From Acetobacteraceae bacterium (lineage in GTDB: Bacteria > Pseudomonadota > Alphaproteobacteria > Acetobacterales > Acetobacteraceae), in assembly GCA_947475245.1 (NCBI GenBank), contig CANJLW010000004.1, forward strand, positions 62,001-126,000: a stretch of DNA of 64,000 bases, read 5' to 3'. Below the pieces are notes generated by a model. The model made no database searches and had not been told where the DNA came from. It saw nothing but the letters and a program-made list of their open reading frames with translations. The position numbers and the translations under genes are program-made. Shown here piece by piece: positions 11,851 to 57,196 of the stretch (its first letter is position 1; each line of letters opens with the position of its first letter).

Positions 11851-11870
11851 AGGTTTCGCTACCAGGGGTA

Positions 11871-11894
11871 GGCCGGCCCGCGAACGGGCCGGCC
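11871..11894 (-). terminator. 3-prime stem-loop of microprotein copy 1
   Basis: A 10-bp perfect stem (GGCCGGCCCG with CGGGCCGGCC) with a UUCG loop on the minus-strand RNA, seven bases past the stop. No T run follows. Confidence 0.6.
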
Positions 11895-11901
11895 CTTTAC
11901 C

Positions 11902-11994
11902 CTACCGCTTTTTTCGAACGATCGACGTTCGGATGATCTTGACTTTGACATCAAGGATCACGATAAAAAGCGGCAGGAAGATGAGATACTTCAT
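11902..11994 (-). CDS. Microprotein copy 1 (30 aa, hydrophobic then basic)
   Basis: The frame begins nine bases after AGGAGG in the perfect Shine-Dalgarno AAGGAGGT. The peptide is MKYLIFLPLFIVILDV, then KVKIIRTSIVRKKR: a 12-14 residue hydrophobic segment with one proline, followed by a strongly basic tail. It is probably a single-span or surface-bound membrane peptide. It differs from the other copies mainly at residue 2 and by conservative or synonymous changes, which favours a translated product. I do not recognise the family. The shape recalls type I toxins such as Ldr or Ibs, but that is only an analogy. Confidence 0.65.
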   Translation of the reverse strand: MKYLIFLPLFIVILDVKVKIIRTSIVRKKR

Positions 11995-12015
11995 TATCTC
12001 ATACCTCCTTTGGTT

Positions 12016-12041
12016 GACCGGCGGGCCTATTCCCGCCGGTC
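12016..12041 (-). promoter_or_regulatory. 5-prime stem-loop of microprotein copy 1
   Basis: GACCGGCGGG pairs with CCCGCCGGTC around a 6-base loop, just upstream of the Shine-Dalgarno sequence. It may control translation or processing. Confidence 0.6.
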
Positions 12042-12128
12042 TTTCCTTTGTCCGACAAAATGCTTAACGAAAGCTTACGCCGTTCGAGGTAATTTTTCGT
12101 CGGCGGAGACAACTGAACTCCAGGGGCA

Positions 12129-12152
12129 GGCCGACCCGCGAACGGGCCGGCC
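12129..12152 (-). terminator. 3-prime stem-loop of microprotein copy 2
   Basis: The same stem as copy 1 with one change. The pair is G-U on the minus-strand RNA but A-C on the plus strand, so pairing survives only if the minus strand is transcribed. The loop is UUCG. Confidence 0.6.
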
Positions 12153-12159
12153 CTTTACC

Positions 12160-12252
12160 CTACCGCTTCTTTCGAACGATCGACGTTCGGATGATCTTGA
12201 CTTTGACATCAAGGATCACGATAAAAAGCGGCAGGAAGATGAGATAGTGCAT
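12160..12252 (-). CDS. Microprotein copy 2 (30 aa)
   Basis: Identical to copy 1 except for His at residue 2. The Shine-Dalgarno is GAGGAGGT and the spacing to the ATG is the same. The hydrophobic core YLIFLPLFIVIL and the basic tail are unchanged, while the last codons differ synonymously from copy 1 (AAG for AAA). It is the second unit of the leftward array, 258 bases from copy 1. The function is unknown. Confidence 0.65.
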   Translation of the reverse strand: MHYLIFLPLFIVILDVKVKIIRTSIVRKKR

Positions 12253-12273
12253 GATCTCATACCTCCTCTGGTT

Positions 12274-12299
12274 GACCGGCGGGCCAATTCCCGCCGGTC
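12274..12299 (-). promoter_or_regulatory. 5-prime stem-loop of microprotein copy 2
   Basis: The same 10-bp stem as copy 1 around a different 6-base loop (CCAATT on the plus strand). Confidence 0.6.
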
Positions 12300-12385
12300 T
12301 TTCCCTTCTCTGATAAAATGCTTAACCAATCCTTACGCCGTTCGAGGTAATTTCTCGCCGGCGGGGCAACTGAACTCCAGGGGCA

Positions 12386-12409
12386 GGCCGACCCGCGTAC
12401 GGGCCGGCC
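12386..12409 (-). terminator. 3-prime stem-loop of microprotein copy 3
   Basis: The 10-bp stem carries the same G-U pair as copy 2. The loop is UACG on the minus-strand RNA, still a UNCG-type tetraloop. Confidence 0.6.
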
Positions 12410-12416
12410 CTTTACC

Positions 12417-12509
12417 CTACCGCTTCTTTCGAACGACTGGCGTTCGGATGATCTTGACTTTAACCTCAAGAATCACCAAAAAGAGCGGCAGGAAGATGAG
12501 ATACTGCAT
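12417..12509 (-). CDS. Microprotein copy 3 (30 aa)
   Basis: The frame reads MQYLIFLPLFLVILEV then KVKIIRTPVVRKKR. Relative to copy 1 it has conservative substitutions (I to L, D to E, S-I to P-V) and several silent changes (for example CTC for CTT and GTT for GTC). This pattern is expected of a selected peptide rather than random drift. Shine-Dalgarno, spacing and both stem-loops are conserved. Confidence 0.65.
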   Translation of the reverse strand: MQYLIFLPLFLVILEVKVKIIRTPVVRKKR

Positions 12510-12530
12510 GATCTCATACCTCCTCTGGTT

Positions 12531-12556
12531 GACCGGCGGGGGGATTCCCGCCGGTC
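12531..12556 (-). promoter_or_regulatory. 5-prime stem-loop of microprotein copy 3
   Basis: A 10-bp GACCGGCGGG/CCCGCCGGTC stem with loop GGGATT on the plus strand. Confidence 0.6.
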
Positions 12557-12642
12557 TTTCCCTTGTCCGACAAAATGCTTAACCAAACCTTACGCCGTCC
12601 GAGGTAATTTTTCGTCGGCGGGGGAACTGAACACCAGGGTCA

Positions 12643-12666
12643 GGCCGACCCGCGTACGAGCCGGCC
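12643..12666 (-). terminator. 3-prime stem-loop of microprotein copy 4
   Basis: A further stem change gives a second G-U pair on the minus-strand RNA. The loop is UACG. The stem stays paired only in the minus-strand transcript. Confidence 0.6.
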
Positions 12667-12673
12667 CTTTACC

Positions 12674-12766
12674 CTACTTCTTCTTTCGAACGACCGGCGT
12701 TCGGATGATCTTGACTTTGACCTCAAGAATCACCATAAAAAGCGGCAGGAAGATGAGATATTGCAT
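12674..12766 (-). CDS. Microprotein copy 4 (30 aa)
   Basis: The frame reads MQYLIFLPLFMVILEV then KVKIIRTPVVRKKK. Residue 11 is Met where other copies have Ile or Leu, and the last residue is Lys instead of Arg. Hydrophobicity and charge are therefore kept. This is the unit closest to the end of the upstream hydrolase gene (stop at 12869) and the first to be transcribed if the array is read through from that gene. Confidence 0.65.
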   Translation of the reverse strand: MQYLIFLPLFMVILEVKVKIIRTPVVRKKK

Positions 12767-12787
12767 TATCTCATACCTCCTCTGGTT

Positions 12788-12813
12788 GACCGGCGGGGGG
12801 ATTCCCGCCGGTC
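12788..12813 (-). promoter_or_regulatory. 5-prime stem-loop of microprotein copy 4
   Basis: A 10-bp stem identical to the other leftward copies, with loop GGGATT on the plus strand. It lies 55 bases past the hydrolase stop, so it could also act on that transcript. Confidence 0.6.
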
Positions 12814-12868
12814 TTTCCCTTGTCCGACAAATTGCTTAACGAATGCTTACCCTGCCGGGACCGTCCGA

Positions 12869-19158: not shown

Positions 19159-19233
19159 GCCGGGTTAGCACAGCGGTAGTGCAGCGGTTTTGTAAACCGA
19201 AGGTCGGGGGTTCAATCCCCTCACCCGGCACCA
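19159..19233 (+). tRNA. tRNA-Thr (anticodon TGT)
   Basis: A 7-bp acceptor stem (GCCGGGT with ACCCGGC), a D arm with AGCGGTAGT, the anticodon loop TTTGTAA, a T arm (GGGGGTTCAATCCCC) and an encoded CCA. Anticodon TGT reads ACA and related Thr codons. Its 3-prime part is the edge of a 110-bp direct repeat that bounds the restriction-modification island. Confidence 0.95.
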
Positions 19234-19298
19234 CATCCTCCCTTGCCACCGGCGTCCGCTACGGCTTCACTGCCGCACCGCAACGCCACGAGGCCCCA
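19189..19298. repeat. Left direct repeat (tRNA 3-prime part plus 65 bases downstream)
   Basis: It runs from the anticodon loop of the intact tRNA-Thr to the end of the shared downstream sequence and is identical to 22116-22225. After one mismatch four more bases match. Confidence 0.95.
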
Positions 19299-19343
19299 CC
19301 GATAGGCGGTTTGGCGTGCGTCACGGGCACGTCGAAAGTTCAG

Positions 19344-20843
19344 ATGATTGCAATTGACCGCATAGATGAGCGTCGGGTGGCAATTGCTGCCGCAATACCC
19401 AAAGAGCAGAAATCTGCCGTTGGGCAATTTTTCACCCCCAGCGTCATCGCGAACTTTATGGCTGCGATGTTCAGGACGCTGGAGGGGGGGACGGCCGTCC
19501 GCCTACTCGATGCGGGATCGGGAATCGGCTCACTCACTGCCGCGTTCGCCCAGAGAGCCGCTGCAGATGGAGTTTCGAATCTGGAAATTGAGGCTTGGGA
19601 GATCGATGAAAAGCTCCATGGGCACTTGAGTGAAACACTCGAAGCTTGCGGAACACTCATTCGCAATAAGGGGGGGTCATTCAAATTTGCCCTACAATCG
19701 GACGATTACATCCTATCGTTTGATAACTTGCTGTTTTCAGGAAGGAGGACGAGGCGACCGACTCACGCCATACTCAACCCTCCCTATAAAAAATTCAGTT
19801 CGGACTCGGCGCATCGTAAGGCGCTCCGAAATCGAGGCATTGAGACCGCGAACCTCTACTCGGCCTTCGTAGCCCTCGCTCTACAGTCACTTGAAGTGGG
19901 CGGAGAGCTCGTCGCAATCACGCCACGCAGCTTTTGCAACGGCCCCTATTTCAGACCGTACCGTGAATTGATCCTTGCAACGGCGAACATTGTCCGCGTT
20001 CACGTGTTCGAGTCACGAACCCACGCATTTAAGGGCGATGAGGTGCTTCAGGAAAATGTGATCTTCCATCTCGTGAAGGGGGAAGCACAGGGGCAAGTTC
20101 TCGTGACCAGCAGCGAAGATGCCACATTTTCCAACGTCACCGTAAAGCAAACCCCTTTCGAGCAGATCGTTCTCCCCGGAGACCGTGAAAAAATCCTGCA
20201 CCTGGCGACCCACGATGAGACCGCGGCAACGTCTTCTGCGATGGCGCGCTACCATCATACGCTTGATGATGTCGGCTTAGCAGTGAGCACTGGCCCGGTT
20301 GTGGACTTCCGGATGCGAGATCACCTTCGGTCGGTTGGTGGTGCGGGTCGTGCGCCGATGGTCTATTCGCATCATATGGAGCGTGGCTTTATCGTCCACC
20401 CAAAGCTTGACGATAAAAAGCCTGAATTCATTGATATCAACAGTGAAACACGAAAATGGCTCATGCCGTCTGGTTGCTATGTGGTGATCCGACGCCTCTC
20501 ATCCAAAGAGGAAAGGCGTCGGATCGTTCCCGCTATCTACACCCCCCAGGCCGCGCCTGGCCCATTCATCGGCTTCGACAACAAGACGAACATCGTCCAT
20601 CAGGCAAAGCACGGCATGGCAGAAGCCGTGGCCAAGGGTATGGCTGTCTATCTCGCGTCAACTTTCGCAGACCAGTGGCTAAGGCGCTTTAGTGGTCACA
20701 CACAGGTTAACGCGGGGGACTTGCACGCTCTTCGTTACCCCGATCGCGAAACCCTGAGAGCCTGGGGGGAGGGAGTCGGCGCAATATTCCCGTCACAGCG
20801 GGAAATTGATGAACTGGTAGGTGGGGTTGATGTCCAAAATTGA
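19344..20843 (+). CDS. Adenine-specific DNA methyltransferase (BsuBI/PstI type)
   Basis: A 499-residue type II N6-adenine methyltransferase. The motif order is GQFFTPSVIANFMA near the N-terminus, the AdoMet-binding motif I LDAGSGIGSL, and the catalytic NPPY in ILNPPYKKFSS. The C-terminal half is the target-recognition region. It is expected to protect host DNA from the partner endonuclease, probably at CTGCAG by family analogy. The start at 19344 is the first ATG that avoids the tRNA and repeat; its ribosome-binding site is weak. It overlaps the endonuclease gene by 14 bases. Confidence 0.9.
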   Translation: MIAIDRIDERRVAIAAAIPKEQKSAVGQFFTPSVIANFMAAMFRTLEGGTAVRLLDAGSGIGSLTAAFAQRAAADGVSNLEIEAWEIDEKLHGHLSETLEACGTLIRNKGGSFKFALQSDDYILSFDNLLFSGRRTRRPTHAILNPPYKKFSSDSAHRKALRNRGIETANLYSAFVALALQSLEVGGELVAITPRSFCNGPYFRPYRELILATANIVRVHVFESRTHAFKGDEVLQENVIFHLVKGEAQGQVLVTSSEDATFSNVTVKQTPFEQIVLPGDREKILHLATHDETAATSSAMARYHHTLDDVGLAVSTGPVVDFRMRDHLRSVGGAGRAPMVYSHHMERGFIVHPKLDDKKPEFIDINSETRKWLMPSGCYVVIRRLSSKEERRRIVPAIYTPQAAPGPFIGFDNKTNIVHQAKHGMAEAVAKGMAVYLASTFADQWLRRFSGHTQVNAGDLHALRYPDRETLRAWGEGVGAIFPSQREIDELVGGVDVQN

Positions 20844-21762
20844 AGAAGCGATCAGCATTATCGTCGACCTTGGGTTTCCGCGGGCACAACAGAACGAGCG
20901 ATCCGGCCTCTGCCTCCTGGCCCTCGTTCAACTTCATGAAAATGGCTCCTGGCAAAAACTGGGACACCCCATGTTGGGCGTACGCGCGATCCTCGATTTC
21001 TGCCGAAATGACTATCAGAAACCATACGCAGAAAACTCCCGCGAGAGTTTTCGTAAGGAGACCCTCCACCAATTCGTCGCGGCCGGCCTTGCATTGCAGA
21101 ACCCGGATCAGCCATCACGCTCACCAAATAGCCCGAAGTGGTGTTACCAGATTGCTCCCCAAGCCGAGAAACTGCTGACCTCCTTCAACACACCCAAATG
21201 GGGGAAAACGTTAGAGGCGTACCTTCGTAAAGCCGGCAGCCTCGCACGGAAATATAAGGCTGCGCGCGAGCAGGCCATGATTCCGTGTTCGATGCCCGAC
21301 GGCTCTGTCGTCAACATCTCCCCTGGAAGCCATAGCGTACTCATACGAGACATCATTCAAGAATTTGCGCCTCGCTTCGCGCCGGGTTCGAAAATCCTGT
21401 ATCTCGGGGATACCGGGAATAAGGGCGTCGTCCACGACGAAGCATTCTTGCAACGCCTCGGGGTGAATGTTCATGAACGCGGGAAGATGCCTGACGCGAT
21501 TCTCTATCGTGAGGAAAAGGGGTGGCTTTACCTCATTGAGTGCGTGACATCCGTTGGCCCGATGGACGGTAAGCGCCATCAAGAATTAACAGCCCTTTTT
21601 GGGAAAGCGAAGGCTGGGCTTGTCTTTGTGTCAGCCTTCCCCAATCGCCGCCTCATGGCCCGTTTCCTGACAAAGATCGCCTGGGAGACAGAGGTTTGGT
21701 GCTCAGATGACCCGACCCATCTGATCCATTTTAATGGTGATCGATTCTTGGGGCCGCACTGA
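20830..21762 (+). CDS. BsuBI/PstI-family type II restriction endonuclease
   Basis: A 310-residue endonuclease. The N-terminal half is a helical DNA-recognition region. The C-terminal nuclease domain carries LYLGDTGNKGVVHDEAFL, KMPDAILYREEKGWLYLIECVTSVGP (PD-(D/E)XK-like Asp and Glu residues) and ends HLIHFNGDRFLGPH, a family hallmark. The start at 20830 (MSKIEEAIS) sits inside the end of the methyltransferase gene, so the two are coupled. Base composition is low-GC like its partner. Confidence 0.92.
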   Translation: MSKIEEAISIIVDLGFPRAQQNERSGLCLLALVQLHENGSWQKLGHPMLGVRAILDFCRNDYQKPYAENSRESFRKETLHQFVAAGLALQNPDQPSRSPNSPKWCYQIAPQAEKLLTSFNTPKWGKTLEAYLRKAGSLARKYKAAREQAMIPCSMPDGSVVNISPGSHSVLIRDIIQEFAPRFAPGSKILYLGDTGNKGVVHDEAFLQRLGVNVHERGKMPDAILYREEKGWLYLIECVTSVGPMDGKRHQELTALFGKAKAGLVFVSAFPNRRLMARFLTKIAWETEVWCSDDPTHLIHFNGDRFLGPH

Positions 21763-22115
21763 TCAACCGGCACCTCGCGCAATGCCCTGTCAGCCCTGCA
21801 TCTCTGTTTCCGACGATCGACCAAGCGATTAGCCAGACCGATCAGGGCATTCCGACAACGACGGTCATTGCAATCATCGCGCGGACGAGTGCCTGTGTCG
21901 GGCGACGCTCGCTGGTCGGCAATCAACCGACAGGCCGGCGCGACATGTGCGTCCACGTAGTGGCACCGTTTTCTGTGCGGACTTCACTCACCGCGCGAGA
22001 GCGATGGTACACGTGAGCAGGAGGCGGAGAACAGCTTCCCGACCGCCGCCATACCTTTTCCGGTCAATGGCTTGTGCCCGAACTTGCGGTGACGCGACCC
22101 GGAGGGACGAGATAC
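21763..22115. other. Gene-free right end of the island
   Basis: These 353 bases contain no frame I can support on either strand. There is no integrase fragment, no inverted terminal repeat and no stem-loop of note. GC rises towards the right repeat. It may be a degraded remnant of the element that delivered the restriction-modification pair. Confidence 0.6.
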
Positions 22116-22225
22116 TTTGTAAACCGAAGGTCGGGGGTTCAATCCCCTCACCCGGCACCACATCCTCCCTTGCCACCGGCGTCCGCTACGGCTTCACTGC
22201 CGCACCGCAACGCCACGAGGCCCCA
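22116..22225. repeat. Right direct repeat with partial tRNA-Thr copy
   Basis: An exact copy of 19189-19298. Its first 45 bases are the 3-prime part of tRNA-Thr with CCA; no D arm or 5-prime acceptor strand precedes it, so it is not a working tRNA. It ends three bases before the hyuA start codon. Confidence 0.95.
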
Positions 22226-22228
22226 ACG

Positions 22229-24310
22229 ATGTCGTCCGCCCGTCTTGCCGTCGATATCGGCGGCACCTTTACCGATCTCGCGCTCGAACACCGCGGCCAA
22301 CGCGCCACCATCAAGGTCCTGACGACCCCCGCCGCCCCCGAAAAAGGCGTGATGGATGGAGTCCGCGCGATCCTGGCCGCGGCCAACCTGCAACCCGCAG
22401 ACATCGCCCTGATCGTCCACGGCACCACGCTCGCCACCAACGCCGTGATCGAACGCAAGGGCGCACGCACCGCCCTGATCACGACCGAAGGCTTCCGCGA
22501 CGTCATCGCGATGGGCAACGAAAGCCGCTACGATCAGTACGACCTCAACATCGTCCTGCCCGAACCGCTGGTGCCCCGCCATCTGCGCTTGCCGGTGCCC
22601 GAACGGCTCGACAATACCGGCCAGATCCTGCGCCCGCTCGACGAAGCCGCCGTCCGCGCCCTGACCCCGCTGCTTCAGCGCGAAGGCGTCGAAAGCATCG
22701 CCGTCGGCTTGCTGCACGCCTTCGTCAACGGCGATCACGAACGTCGCGTCCGCGCGATCCTGAACGAAGAACTGCCGCACATCCCGGTCTCTCTGTCCTG
22801 CGAAGTCTCGCCGGAAATGCGGGAGTGGGAGCGTTTTTCCACCACCGCCGCCAACGCCTACGTGCAGCCGATGATGGCCCGCTACCTGCGCATCCTGGAA
22901 GCCGACCTCAAGGCCATGGGCTTCGCGGCGCCGTTGTTCCTGATGATGTCCGGCGGCGGCCTGACGACGATCGAAACCGCCTGCCGCTTCCCCATCCGCC
23001 TGGTCGAAAGCGGCCCCGCCGGCGGTGCCATCTTCTCCGCCCATATCGCCCGCCAGTGCGGCCTCGACTCCGTGCTGTCCTTTGACATGGGCGGCACCAC
23101 GGCCAAAATCTGCCTGATCGACAACTTCGAACCGCAGACCGCCCGCACGTTTGAGGTCGCGCGCGTCGGGCGCTTCCGCAAAGGTTCCGGCCTGCCGCTG
23201 CGCATTCCGGTGATAGAGATGGTGGAAATCGGCGCCGGCGGCGGATCGATCGCCCATGTCGACGGCATGGGCCGCATCGGCGTCGGCCCCGAAAGCGCCG
23301 GCGCGGTGCCTGGTCCGGCCTGCTATGCCAAGGGCGGCACCCGCCCGGCGGTGACCGACGCCAATCTCTCCCTCGGCCGCTACGACGCCGATCGCTTTGC
23401 CGGCGGCACCATTCGCCTCGACCCCACCGCCGCCCACGATGCCCTCCTCGCCCATATCGGCGCCCCGCTCGGCCTGACCGCCGACATGGCGGGATTGGGC
23501 GTGGTCGAAATGGTCGATGAGAACATGGCCAACGCCGCGCGGGTTCATGCCATCGAGTCCGGCAAAACCTATGACGGGCGCACCCTGATCGCCTTCGGCG
23601 GCGGCGGACCGGTGCACGGCTGCCGGGTCGCGGAGAAAATCGGCATCCGCCGCGTGCTGGTGCCGTCCGGCGCCGGCGTCGGCAGCGCCATCGGCTTTCT
23701 CCGCGCCCCCGTCGGGTACGAAGTCGTGCGCAGCCTCTATCAGCGCTTCTCCAGCTTCGACGTCGCCGCGGTGAACGATCTGCTGTCGGACATGCAGCAG
23801 GAAGCCCAGGCCGTGGTGGCGGAAGGCAGCTTCGGCGCCCCCACGGTGGAGCGGCGCATCGCCTATATGCGCTACGTCGGCCAGGGCCACGAAATACCGG
23901 TTCCCCTGCCGAACCATGTATTGGGGGAAGAAGACGTCGCCACCATCCGCGCAGCCTACGACCACGAATACGCGAAGTTCTTCGACCGCCCCGTGCCCGG
24001 TTCCGATGTGGAGATCATGAGCTACGCCGTCGTCGTCGCCACCGTCGCCGAACCGCTCGATGCCGCCGACGGGACCGACGCCCCGCTGACATCCGAACCG
24101 ACGCCGGTCCGTTCGCAATTGGTGCGCGACACCGTCACCGGCGACGTCGCGCCCTGGAACATTTTCGATCGCGCCGATCTGACACCGGGCGCGCGCATCC
24201 TCGGGCCGGCGATCGTGGCGGAGGACGAGACCTCCACCCTTATCGGTCCCAACTGGCAGGGCCGGATCGACTCATTCGGTTACATCGAACTCACCCGCGT
24301 CGATAGCTGA
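22229..24310 (+). CDS. hyuA: Hydantoinase/oxoprolinase A-type subunit
   Basis: A 693-residue HyuA-family ATPase. The N-terminus RLAVDIGGTFTDLALEHRG and the motifs IVHGTTLATNAVIERKGA, SFDMGGTTAKICLID and AFGGGGPVHGCRVAEKIG are diagnostic of N-methylhydantoinase/5-oxoprolinase A subunits. These hydrolyse cyclic amides with ATP, together with a B subunit. No HyuB gene follows; the next gene is an exported metallo-hydrolase. The ATG lies three bases past the right island repeat. A start further upstream would run through the repeat and the tRNA fragment and is rejected. Confidence 0.92.
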   Translation: MSSARLAVDIGGTFTDLALEHRGQRATIKVLTTPAAPEKGVMDGVRAILAAANLQPADIALIVHGTTLATNAVIERKGARTALITTEGFRDVIAMGNESRYDQYDLNIVLPEPLVPRHLRLPVPERLDNTGQILRPLDEAAVRALTPLLQREGVESIAVGLLHAFVNGDHERRVRAILNEELPHIPVSLSCEVSPEMREWERFSTTAANAYVQPMMARYLRILEADLKAMGFAAPLFLMMSGGGLTTIETACRFPIRLVESGPAGGAIFSAHIARQCGLDSVLSFDMGGTTAKICLIDNFEPQTARTFEVARVGRFRKGSGLPLRIPVIEMVEIGAGGGSIAHVDGMGRIGVGPESAGAVPGPACYAKGGTRPAVTDANLSLGRYDADRFAGGTIRLDPTAAHDALLAHIGAPLGLTADMAGLGVVEMVDENMANAARVHAIESGKTYDGRTLIAFGGGGPVHGCRVAEKIGIRRVLVPSGAGVGSAIGFLRAPVGYEVVRSLYQRFSSFDVAAVNDLLSDMQQEAQAVVAEGSFGAPTVERRIAYMRYVGQGHEIPVPLPNHVLGEEDVATIRAAYDHEYAKFFDRPVPGSDVEIMSYAVVVATVAEPLDAADGTDAPLTSEPTPVRSQLVRDTVTGDVAPWNIFDRADLTPGARILGPAIVAEDETSTLIGPNWQGRIDSFGYIELTRVDS

Positions 24311-50616: not shown

Positions 50617-50901
50617 GACCTCATGCGACGTGAGCCTCGGGCCGCGCAGCCCCGTCTCCGCGAACTCCTGGGAACTCAATCTTCCTCCCGGTCAAAATCA
50701 AAACCCGTCAATCCAGCGCAGCCCCATCCCGGTGCCCCCGCGCGGTATGGGCGCTTTTCCCGGCGGAAGAACCTCATGCGACGTGAGAGTCCGGATCGCC
50801 GTCCGAGGATTCAACACAAAGGAAGCAGGAGGGCCGCGAAGGGCACCGAGGCGTTGGATCGCGGTCAATGCCCCCGTCGATACGGAAATGGCGAACAACA
50901 C
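50617..50901. repeat. Direct repeat unit 1 (about 285 bp)
   Basis: It begins ACCTCATGCGACGTGAG and contains a second copy of that word at 50770. It matches unit 2 at roughly nine of ten bases, counted by eye. Confidence 0.85.
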
Positions 50902-51183
50902 CCTATGCGACGTGAGCCTCAGGCCGCGCAATCAGGCCTCCGCGACCTCCTGGAAACTCAATCTTACTCCCAGTCAAAATCAAAACCCGTCAATCCAGCG
51001 CGGCCCCATCCCGGTGCCCCCGCTCGGCTTGGGCGCTTTTCCCGGCGGAAGAACCTCATGCGACGTGAGAGTCCGGATCGCCGTCCGAGGATTCAACACA
51101 AAGGAAGCAGGAGGACCTCGAAGGGCACGGAGGCGTGGGATCGCCGCCGGTGCCTCCGCCGATACGGAAATGGCGAACAACAC
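50902..51183. repeat. Direct repeat unit 2 (about 282 bp)
   Basis: It begins ACCCTATGCGACGTGAG. It is near-identical to unit 1 in its middle. A third, decaying copy starts at 51184 and fades by about 51360. Confidence 0.85.
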
Positions 51184-51473
51184 CCTATGCGACGTGAGCC
51201 TCAAGCCGAGCAACCAGGCCTCCGCGACCTCCTGGAAACTCAATCTTCCTCCCGGTCAAAATCAAAGCCCGGCAAGCCAACGGCGACCCATCCCCGAATC
51301 TCCGGGCGGTCAGAACGCGATTCCCGGCGGAAGGAGCCCATGCGCCCTGAGAAACCGCACCAAGCCGCACGAGCAGGGGATGGCAGCGGTGGGCAATACC
51401 TCATGCACCGTGAAACGCTGAGCGCCCCGCCTGGATCGGGTGACGGCACGGACGCCCGCCCCCGGCCTCGCGG

Positions 51474-55571: not shown

Positions 55572-56537
55572 ATGACGGAGAAGACCGACAAACCCGCGCC
55601 CGCCTGGAAAGGCCTGAATACCGACAGCATGCCGGTCTTCATCGGCTACGATCAGGCCGAACGCATGGTCGCTGCCCTATTGGATCGCGCCGCCGCATGG
55701 CACCCGGACAGCGTTGTCGGTATCGCCCGCGGCGGTCTTGTGCCGGCCACCATGGCGTCGTGCATGCTGGCGCTGCCGCTGGCGATCGCCGGCTGGGATC
55801 GCGCGGAGGGCATCATGCGCTGGATCGGCCCCGCCGCGCAGGGCCCGCGCGTGCTCCTGGTCGACGACTGCTCCGCCACCGGCACAACGCTGCGCGCCGC
55901 CCGGGACTGGCTGTTGGCCCAGGACTTTCAGGTCATGACGCTGACGATCGTGCACGACCCGGAAACCACCGCCCTGGTGCCCGACCTGTCGCACCCGATG
56001 CGCGCGCTGTTTCGCCTGCCGTGGGAACGCGGGGAAGCCACACCGACGGCCCGCGCCCGCCGAACCCTGGGGAAACCGGCGGAGCGGGAGACCGAGGCAC
56101 CGTTCTTCGGCCTCGACCTCGATGGCGTGTTCCTGCCCGATGTGCCGCGCGCGCTCTATCAGTCCGATCTGCAGGCGGCGCTGTCGCACCGACAGAGCCT
56201 GGAACCGTTCACCAGCCTGCCACTGTACACCGCGGGCCGAGCGGTGGTGATCACGGGGCGACCGGAGTCGGACCGCGTTGTGACGCAATCCTGGCTCGAA
56301 CAATGGGGTTTCGGCGCGCTCCCGCTCGAATGCCGTCCGTTGGGCGTTGGGGAGCGCCTGGAAGAAGTCGCCCGCTACAAGGCGGAGACCGCGACGCGCT
56401 GGGGATGCACGCATTTCATCGAGAGCGAGGCGGAACAAGCGGTGCGTATCGCGGCCATGGCCAAGCATCTGGTTGTAAGCTGGTGGTCGGCGGAGGATGC
56501 CCGCGCCTGGCTGATAGGTGCCGCGGAGCAGGGCTGA
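55572..56537 (+). CDS. Phosphoribosyltransferase fused to a HAD-like domain
   Basis: A 321-residue protein. The N-terminal half is a PRTase (VVGIARGGLVPATMAS and the PRPP loop VLLVDDCSATGTTL). The C-terminal half starts with FGLDLDGVFLPDV, a HAD-type DxDG motif, and continues VVITGRPESDRVVTQSWLEQWGF. The PRTase could salvage a base or remove it, and the HAD domain could dephosphorylate the product, but this is inference. The PRPP loop keeps both acidic residues. It is last in the run from 52.9 kb. Confidence 0.85.
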   Translation: MTEKTDKPAPAWKGLNTDSMPVFIGYDQAERMVAALLDRAAAWHPDSVVGIARGGLVPATMASCMLALPLAIAGWDRAEGIMRWIGPAAQGPRVLLVDDCSATGTTLRAARDWLLAQDFQVMTLTIVHDPETTALVPDLSHPMRALFRLPWERGEATPTARARRTLGKPAERETEAPFFGLDLDGVFLPDVPRALYQSDLQAALSHRQSLEPFTSLPLYTAGRAVVITGRPESDRVVTQSWLEQWGFGALPLECRPLGVGERLEEVARYKAETATRWGCTHFIESEAEQAVRIAAMAKHLVVSWWSAEDARAWLIGAAEQG

Positions 56538-56587
56538 TTGGCACCACCGTTCTAACGGTTTCTTAAGCTTTATGCCCGATAAGGAAA

Positions 56588-56613
56588 GACCGGCGGGAAT
56601 TCCCCCGCCGGTC
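56588..56613 (+). promoter_or_regulatory. 5-prime stem-loop of microprotein copy 5
   Basis: A 10-bp stem GACCGGCGGG/CCCGCCGGTC just before the Shine-Dalgarno sequence, identical in stem to the leftward copies. Confidence 0.6.
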
Positions 56614-56631
56614 AACCGAAGGAGGTATGAG

Positions 56632-56727
56632 ATGTTTGGCTATCTCATCTTCCTGCCGCTTTTTATCGTGATTCTTGATGTCAAAGTCAAGATCATCCGA
56701 ACGCCAGTCGTTCGGAAGAAGCGGTAG
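56632..56727 (+). CDS. Microprotein copy 5 (31 aa)
   Basis: The frame reads MFGYLIFLPLFIVILDV then KVKIIRTPVVRKKR. It has one residue more at the N-terminus than the leftward copies but an otherwise matching core. The ATG follows AAGGAGGT at good spacing; a nearer ATG is out of frame and too close to be used. An upstream extension in this frame runs back through the stem-loop and the PRTase gene and is rejected. It is probably membrane-associated; the function is unknown. Confidence 0.65.
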   Translation: MFGYLIFLPLFIVILDVKVKIIRTPVVRKKR

Positions 56728-56734
56728 GGTAAAG

Positions 56735-56758
56735 GGCCGGTCCGCTTGCGGACCGGCC
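56735..56758 (+). terminator. 3-prime stem-loop of microprotein copy 5
   Basis: GGCCGGTCCG pairs with CGGACCGGCC around CUUG. Relative to the leftward array, a C-G pair has become T-A with both sides changed, a compensatory substitution. Confidence 0.65.
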
Positions 56759-56939
56759 TGCCCCCGGTATCCAGCCATCCGCGTGTCCGGGCCCAACGAA
56801 CGGGCAAACGCCAATCCAACCAAACCTACGGATCAAGAACGATAGCCTATCCCCGCGAACACGGCATGATACCCGCCGCGAAAGCAGAATTGCCCCGCCG
56901 CTCTAACGGATTCTTAAGCTTTGTACCTGAAAAGGAAGA

Positions 56940-56963
56940 ACCGGCGGGAATTCCCCCGCCGGT
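56940..56963 (+). promoter_or_regulatory. 5-prime stem-loop of microprotein copy 6
   Basis: A 9-bp stem ACCGGCGGG/CCCGCCGGT around AATTCC, one pair shorter than in other copies. Confidence 0.6.
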
Positions 56964-56982
56964 CAACCGAAGGAGGTATGAG

Positions 56983-57078
56983 ATGGTAGGATATCTCATC
57001 TTCCTGCCGCTTTTTATCGTGATTCTTGATGTCAAAGTCAAGATCATCCGAACGCCAGTCGTTCGGAAGAAGCAGTAG
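56983..57078 (+). CDS. Microprotein copy 6 (31 aa)
   Basis: The frame reads MVGYLIFLPLFIVILDV then KVKIIRTPVVRKKQ. It differs from copy 5 only at residue 2 and the last residue. It keeps the Shine-Dalgarno, spacing and stem-loops. It lies 118 bases before the converging flavin monooxygenase gene. Confidence 0.65.
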   Translation: MVGYLIFLPLFIVILDVKVKIIRTPVVRKKQ

Positions 57079-57085
57079 GGTAAAG

Positions 57086-57109
57086 GGCCGGTCCGCTTGC
57101 GGACCGGCC
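57086..57109 (+). terminator. 3-prime stem-loop of microprotein copy 6
   Basis: A 10-bp stem and CUUG loop, identical to copy 5, eight bases past the stop. Confidence 0.65.
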
Positions 57110-57196
57110 TGCCCTCGGTATCCAGCCCTCTCGTGTCCCTTCCCAACGAACCAACGAACGCCAACCAGGCCGCATCCACGGACCAAGATCGATATT

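Follow-up and report, generated by a model that had tools for sequence, protein, structure and literature searches.

Six short repeats in the window, the whole 64,000-nucleotide stretch of DNA analysed here, appear to be genuine, very small genes that belong to an unnamed family with many copies, harboured by probably uncultured relatives of the acetic acid bacteria. The presence of six tandem microprotein units was confirmed by direct reading: array A (11862..12840, minus strand) holds four ORFs of 30 aa, and array B (56533..57130, plus strand) holds two ORFs of 31 aa. An earlier note, made from the letters alone, had reported six near-identical short frames with a shared core, a basic tail and a Shine-Dalgarno sequence. 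Direct reading and alignment of the peptides bear this out, and its description of the arrays stands once the missing strand of array A, minus, and the setting within a wider family are supplied.

The ORFs, stop codons included, occupy 11902..11994 (a1), 12160..12252 (a2), 12417..12509 (a3) and 12674..12766 (a4) on the minus strand and 56632..56727 (b1) and 56983..57078 (b2) on the plus strand, with a spacing of 257-258 bp in array A and 351 bp in array B. Tandem Repeats Finder describes array A as a repeat with a period of 257 bp, 3.8 copies, 92% match and a score of 1606 (11862-12840). The unit length is about 260-350 bp, and each of the six copies keeps a Shine-Dalgarno sequence, AGGAGG, ahead of an open frame of 30-31 codons. 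All six peptides have YLIFLPLF-x-VIL-(D/E)-VKVKIIRT and a basic tail in common. The neighbours of array A are a molybdopterin oxidoreductase and an alpha/beta hydrolase, and array B is flanked by a phosphoribosyltransferase-domain gene on one side and a luciferase-like monooxygenase on the other (all by Pfam).

From 5´ to 3´, a unit comprises an nTAA/CTAA-like half-site, seven nucleotides, TTAA, an A-rich stretch, hairpin 1 with the core ACCGGCGGG..CCCGCCGGT, AGGAGG, the ORF ending in TAG, and a G+C-rich hairpin directly 3´ of the stop. In a1 (minus strand), the CtrA-box-like GTAA-N7-TTAA, assigned by sequence and by the family motif T.AA-N7-TT.A, lies at 12064..12078, and hairpin 1, the 5´ hairpin, at 12016..12041 (equivalents at 12274-12299, 12531-12556 and 12788-12813). 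The start hairpin, assigned by the minimum free energy (MFE) fold and covariation, spans 11975..12009, with AGGAGG paired to ORF codons and the start codon in the loop, and hairpin 4 follows the stop codon at 11871..11894 (equivalents at 12129-12152, 12386-12409 and 12643-12666). In b1 (plus strand), a CtrA-box-like CTAA-N7-TTAA assigned in the same way lies at 56552..56566 (b2, 56903-56917), hairpin 1 at 56588..56613 (b2, 56940-56963) and hairpin 4, after the stop, at 56735..56758 (b2, 57086-57109). Folding of one unit's presumed transcript gives -101.2 kcal/mol, whereas its dinucleotide shuffles, 200 in number, average -55.75 (sd 4.71), for a z of -9.65. The pattern AAGGAGGTATGAGATG, two mismatches being allowed, occurs in the whole genome at the six window places only, its reversed control giving no match. 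Together, these two results exclude a chance origin of the units.

Profile searches across relatives, which the earlier note had called for, revealed a wider family in the genus and in the Acetobacteraceae. A single window peptide used as query matched in 3 of 59 genomes, its own genome counted, while a 9-row peptide profile reached 19 of the 33 genomes of the genus and one of 25 rows reached 21 (E<=0.01). The peptide profile matched 20 of 397 genomes (7 of 102 genera) in the Acetobacteraceae sample and 2 of 385 in the class sample, namely the own genome and G166, the latter weakly and with an internal stop. A covariance model of the RNA, built from 45 units, found matches in 29 of the genus's 33 genomes (E<=0.01). 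Among the matches listed (>=67.8 bits), at least 28 of the 33 genomes carry one unit or more, the own genome at least 12 and the richest genome at least 13 (G027); only these matches were counted because the raw per-genome totals are inflated by weak matches and apparently also by opposite-strand echoes of the palindromic hairpins. In the family sample, scanned with stricter filters that may have lost some matches, the model matched 42 of 397 genomes (23 of 102 genera) at E<=1e-4, and 23 genomes in 8 of 102 genera at >=45 bits. It matched 24 of 385 genomes in the class sample at E<=0.001, all of those outside the own genome at 38.5 bits or less; matches of such strength, within the family as well, are taken as noise.

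A strict pattern matched 15 stretches in named records, including the Acetobacteraceae MAGs UBA6159, UBA8620, Baikal-deep-G65 and VK_bin-0718, Rhodopila sp., and records titled Asaia bogorensis or Nitrosovibrio, whose titles look mislabelled. Among 5.8 billion predicted proteins, seven clusters of 30-42 aa were found, none of them named and three of them the window's own peptides. The usual product of the family has 25-28 aa and roughly follows M-x-x-H-[L/R]-x-x-L-x-L-I-x-V-I-x-x-x-K-V-K-I-x-[I/V]-x-K-R, so the size of 30-31 aa given in the earlier note holds for the window, whose form is a C-terminally extended variant. The peptides have diverged strongly, as in MRKHLKLLLRIVVKIDVKVKITVIRK and MGKRRLILVLIVVIGRFRVKIIIKLR. 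In a family member on the minus strand of L033 (G016, 1425-1612), the last codons enter a palindromic stretch, GGGCCTGTTC...GAACAGGCCC, and the 3´ end has possibly been replaced by a small insertion. Four units lying 500-860 bp apart in L120 (G010:C98, 2371-4483) are without His4 and the start-codon hairpin and keep the rest.

The earlier note had proposed a new family of translated microproteins, and the behaviour of the frame across relatives supports it. None of the 91 units that were found by their frame has a stop within codons 6-23, which is partly so by construction. A more telling set is formed by 52 further units from the match list of the RNA model, which scores sequence together with structure and is not blind to the ORF, an open frame not being required: 45 of them contain intact frames of 25-28 aa that fit the general family formula, in two the stop alone is gone (L221, L228) and five are broken (L191, L208:1032, L211:1137 and partial or deleted copies in L138 and L158). 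The peptide profile had picked up seven of the 52 as well; the other 45 were found through the RNA model alone, and 38 of these have intact frames. Frames broken beside persisting hairpins are, as these counts indicate, not the general state. Omega, estimated as a crude count over closest pairs and single-change codons, was about 0.42 (26 pairs), 0.58 (34) and 0.56 (44) in three divergence bins, below 1 rather than near it, and the second codon position showed the fewest changes in every bin. Both results bear on conditions that the earlier note had set for its own refutation, and neither of them refutes it. From the pattern of substitutions and conserved frames, the unit ORFs look translated. 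Two of the 88 distinct start regions carry AAG in place of the start codon, a point against the reading favoured below.

The mRNA is constrained as well, and parts of its fold were shown by comparative sequence evidence to be conserved: the 5´ hairpin, the start-codon hairpin and the stem between codons 8-10 and the stop region. The tested fold comprises 34 pairs in 45 sequences, and 88.2% of its cells are paired against 28-52% when the partners are slid, a control in which the fold is favoured by having been drawn from one sequence and RNAalifold. Two-sided changes affect 18 pairs, compared with 8.2 in shuffles. Hairpin 1 is paired in 98.0% of cells and the start stem in 86.7%. The stem in which codons 8-10 meet the last codons and the stop is paired in 90.6%, with two-sided change in six of its eight pairs, and the internal hairpin, the weakest of the four helices, in 77.6%, with a single two-sided pair. 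For the start stem, 456 of 528 cells are paired, while 500 shuffles gave a mean of 407 and a maximum of 421.

In the start stem, AUG pairs with codon 4, which is why His4 is written CAT in 69 of 74 cases; three distinct cases with a GTG start have CAC at codon 4. The outer pairs of the stem also covary (GAG/CTC, AAG/CTT, GCG/CGC). In array A, the ATG sits one codon later, in the loop of the start hairpin. The absence of this hairpin from six units of L117, L120 and L121 counts against the reading favoured below. Codon choice was compared with that of 19 window genes. Leu5 is CTC or CTT in 64 of 65 cases and never the common CTG, Leu7 is CTC in 39 of 44 and Leu15 is CTT in 40 of 54, and these leucine biases fit the predicted pairing; the preference for AAA at Lys18 (64 of 77) does not. 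Silent sites are conserved far more than the spacers.

A control in which synonymous codons were randomised points in the same direction. It lowered the paired fraction from 0.89 to 0.69 for the AUG region and from 0.85 to 0.74 for the Shine-Dalgarno sequence, and changed the MFE from -97.6 to -89.4. As many as 83 of 89 real units fold more stably than their controls do on average, with the AUG region more paired than in the control in 77 of 89 and the Shine-Dalgarno sequence in 70 of 89; the units share ancestry, so that none of these fold and codon counts are independent trials. Codon choice favours, as far as folding models go, a lock on translation. Pairing of the Shine-Dalgarno sequence exceeds 0.8 in only 54 of 89 units, the control figure being 34, which counts against the lock. 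In the six window units its pairing reaches 0.88-1.0, and the a1 start hairpin, whose stem covaries across the family, has it paired with a probability of 0.99-1.0 in the MFE fold. The Shine-Dalgarno sequence and AUG are predicted to be mostly paired in the full-length RNA, and fold prediction, start-stem covariation and the synonymous-codon control agree in placing the ribosome binding site within the mRNA fold.

Upstream of the units lies the motif T.AA-N7-TT.A: 67 of 107 units match all six of its positions, compared with 3 of 107 after shuffling, and 19 more match five of them, compared with 21 after shuffling. In 74 of the 86 units with five or six matches, the box ends 17-18 nt before the start of the RNA model, and a -10-like A-rich stretch, CAAAAT, lies downstream of it. 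The exact TTAA-N7-TTAA is found in 13 of 107 units. The Caulobacter CtrA promoters likewise have TTAA-N7-TTAA, usually as one site at -35; they differ from the units, in which the second half-site is TTCA as often as TTAA. Half-sites such as CTAA and AAAA are in use in CtrA boxes at -35 (PMC11264516, in extract). The upstream element resembles, by its sequence and position, the CtrA boxes found at -35.

A candidate promoter also lies on the antisense strand, where GTC-AAG of the frame reads CTTGAC, a -35-like element. GTC encodes Val19 in 81 of 81 cases and AAG encodes Lys20 in 91 of 91, against 44.5% and 74.8% in the window genes. The best promoter-like position on either strand of the scanned stretch is antisense and inside the ORF (mean 8.36 of 12), the next antisense position scoring 5.76 and the best sense position 6.15. 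The antisense -10 is weak, at 3.46 of 6 against 3.19 in synonymous controls, a weak excess, and the coding of K-V-K together with the internal hairpin can account for part of the -35 signal. Read on the antisense strand, hairpin 1 is followed by no more than a short U tract; in a1, TTTCC follows it on this opposite strand, where it is terminator-like by score. These features suggest, as a hypothesis, an antisense RNA starting from within the ORF.

Between its arms, the start stem encloses a variable loop of six bases, which are codons 2-3 or, in array A, ATG and codon 2. Each of the 22 tandem neighbour pairs compared (24 were found, and two below 80% identity were dropped) differs in this loop. 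Changes affect 53 of its 132 sites (40%), but 15 of 212 fourfold sites (7%); in the two stem arms, 11 and 10 sites out of 132 each are changed. Three pairs are identical over the 72 bases from codon 4 on, yet differ at two or three of the six loop bases. The loop changes at about the rate of the spacers between units (38% versus 38-41%), and its variability is compatible with an absence of constraint as well as with diversification; diversification beyond neutrality is not shown, since the loop evolves like the spacers. Loop distances at equal ORF identity are alike within and between genomes, for instance 2.68 versus 2.40 of 6 at >=95%. At ORF identities of >=80%, identical loops occur in 0 of 98 pairs within genomes and in 7 of 299 between them; over all pairs of 136 units the corresponding counts are 0 of 349 and 32 of 8831, and with an expectation of about 1.3 within genomes the difference is not significant. 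It is unlikely, in our estimate, that the loop serves as an address, with each unit making its own antisense RNA of complementary loop so that the many near-identical paralogues of a cell are silenced singly, free of cross-talk and with CtrA-linked timing. Were loops to address cognate antisense RNAs, this would explain how many near-identical toxin-like genes coexist in one genome.

No unit was found beside 23 orthologues (75-81% identity) of the oxidoreductase neighbouring array A in other genomes of the genus, with flanks of up to 1.5 kb per side, those of L289, L293, L300 and L304 being shortened by contig ends and the gene in L304 being partial; one 16-bit match is noise. The idea of a shared flanking gene was rejected on this count. 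An origin from phages or plasmids was also discarded, on the grounds of no match in plasmids or phages to the DNA of unit b1 and none in viral contigs to one strict pattern.

The reading that we favour, and to which we give an even chance of being right, is that the units are stand-alone cassettes for a helical and cationic peptide of the membrane, which is tightly controlled at the RNA level and works like a type I toxin; no known type I family is claimed for it. A promoter with a CtrA-box-like activator site would drive a short mRNA starting at about hairpin 1. Its ORF would encode a helical, hydrophobic, C-terminally cationic membrane peptide of 25-31 aa, with a hairpin directly 3´ of the stop. 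The peptide would insert into the inner membrane and in excess might be harmful or growth-modulating; for this reason, translation would be locked by the mRNA's own fold and opened under a certain condition, through regulated transcription, RNA processing or co-transcriptional timing. In type I systems, antisense RNA pairing keeps the toxin mRNA silent. Less certainly, a short antisense RNA might likewise start in the ORF, cover the start hairpin and the Shine-Dalgarno sequence and end at hairpin 1, pairing through the variable loop to keep each copy silent. With fewer than 60 aa, a hydrophobic composition and a predicted helical membrane segment, the peptides have the size and hydrophobicity of type I toxins; AlphaFold2, run on one peptide with a 9-row alignment, returned a single helix (residues 3-29, mean pLDDT 85). 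The charged residues within the hydrophobic part of some distant family members count against a toxin-like role.

The main rival is a non-toxic one. The peptides might be small regulatory or stress membrane proteins, controlled by CtrA or by stress and made from a self-folding mRNA whose structure governs its stability and rate of translation, with neither a toxin role nor an antisense RNA, a tentative alternative that we rate as somewhat improbable. The CtrA-box-like element with its -10-like A-rich stretch, the single predicted helix and the weak antisense -10 all suit such proteins. What speaks for toxins instead is the combination of many paralogues per genome, mostly with their own promoter-like element, their absence at orthologous places and the paired Shine-Dalgarno sequence, since these traits are commoner in type I toxins than in housekeeping regulators.

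It is quite improbable that the units are selfish dispersed repeats of the MITE or REP kind, whose peptide or RNA would aid their own spread. The empty flanks of the oxidoreductase orthologues and a patchy spread over 8 of 102 genera would agree with mobility, but the searches of plasmids and phages with unit b1 and of viral contigs with one strict pattern gave no match and the spread within arrays resembles tandem duplication. A structured non-coding RNA repeat with the ORF as a by-product would have the very stable, covarying fold and the silent sites conserved far above the spacers that we see. This last idea was rejected because the frames mostly persist in the RNA-model units despite strong divergence of the peptide; omega of about 0.4-0.6 and the kept positions of the Shine-Dalgarno sequence and the stop add to this, and we consider it extremely unlikely.

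Comparison with known systems places the toxin-like reading in context. The earlier note had likened the arrays to Ldr and Ibs/Sib in architecture only, and the database searches agree: Pfam gave a best E of 0.33 for 10 peptides (SMIM43, far below the cut-off), NCBIfam none, PADLOC none for 5 peptides, and PHROGs E values of 0.025 and 0.38 to families of unknown function, while Rfam at the gathering threshold found in the window a tRNA only. The family was not found in the literature examined, mostly outside subscription journals, and nothing emerged there on Acetobacteraceae small proteins or sORFs. Ldr peptides have a cationic C-terminus, and AapA/IsoA systems occur at paralogous loci. Ldr/Rdl of E. 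coli resembles the units in consisting of repeats, three of the four in tandem, each with a gene for a toxic peptide of 35 aa (extracts of PMC4147584); no family match links the two. Similarly, Ibs/Sib has a short hydrophobic toxin gene in five chromosomal repeat copies in E. coli, and the Sib antitoxin RNA overlaps both the coding region and the ribosome binding site, its recognition domains lying in the CDS and at the initiation site (extracts of PMC4147584). The units differ from it in their longer cationic peptide, the start-codon hairpin with its variable loop, the CtrA-like promoter, the lack of an Rfam or protein family match, and an antisense RNA that is putative. In H. pylori, mutations in the mRNA of the type I toxin aapA3 take effect by way of hairpins that sequester the Shine-Dalgarno sequence, and one of these is embedded in the ORF, as in the units (PMC6733600, in extract). 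The AapA hairpin is transient, whereas the presumed lock of the units is part of the MFE fold of the presumed full-length RNA, and here too there is no family match.

The units would add to the Acetobacteraceae a large unannotated family of genes for peptides of 25-31 aa, expressed from near-autonomous cassettes. They also offer a clean natural case of double selection, for a protein and for an RNA fold, over the same 80 bases, with a start codon that covaries with codon 4.

The window holds two further repeats. The 3´ part of a tRNA gene (19159-19230) lies within a 115-nt stretch (19189-19303) with a second copy, at 99%, at 22116-22230. The two copies enclose the genes for an Eco57I-type methylase and for a restriction endonuclease of the BsuBI/PstI family, and 19159-22230 is a tRNA-associated restriction-modification island with att-like repeats. 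Finally, a second tandem repeat at 50623-51294 (period 282 bp, 2.4 copies, 90% match) lies in a stretch whose long frames are repetitive.
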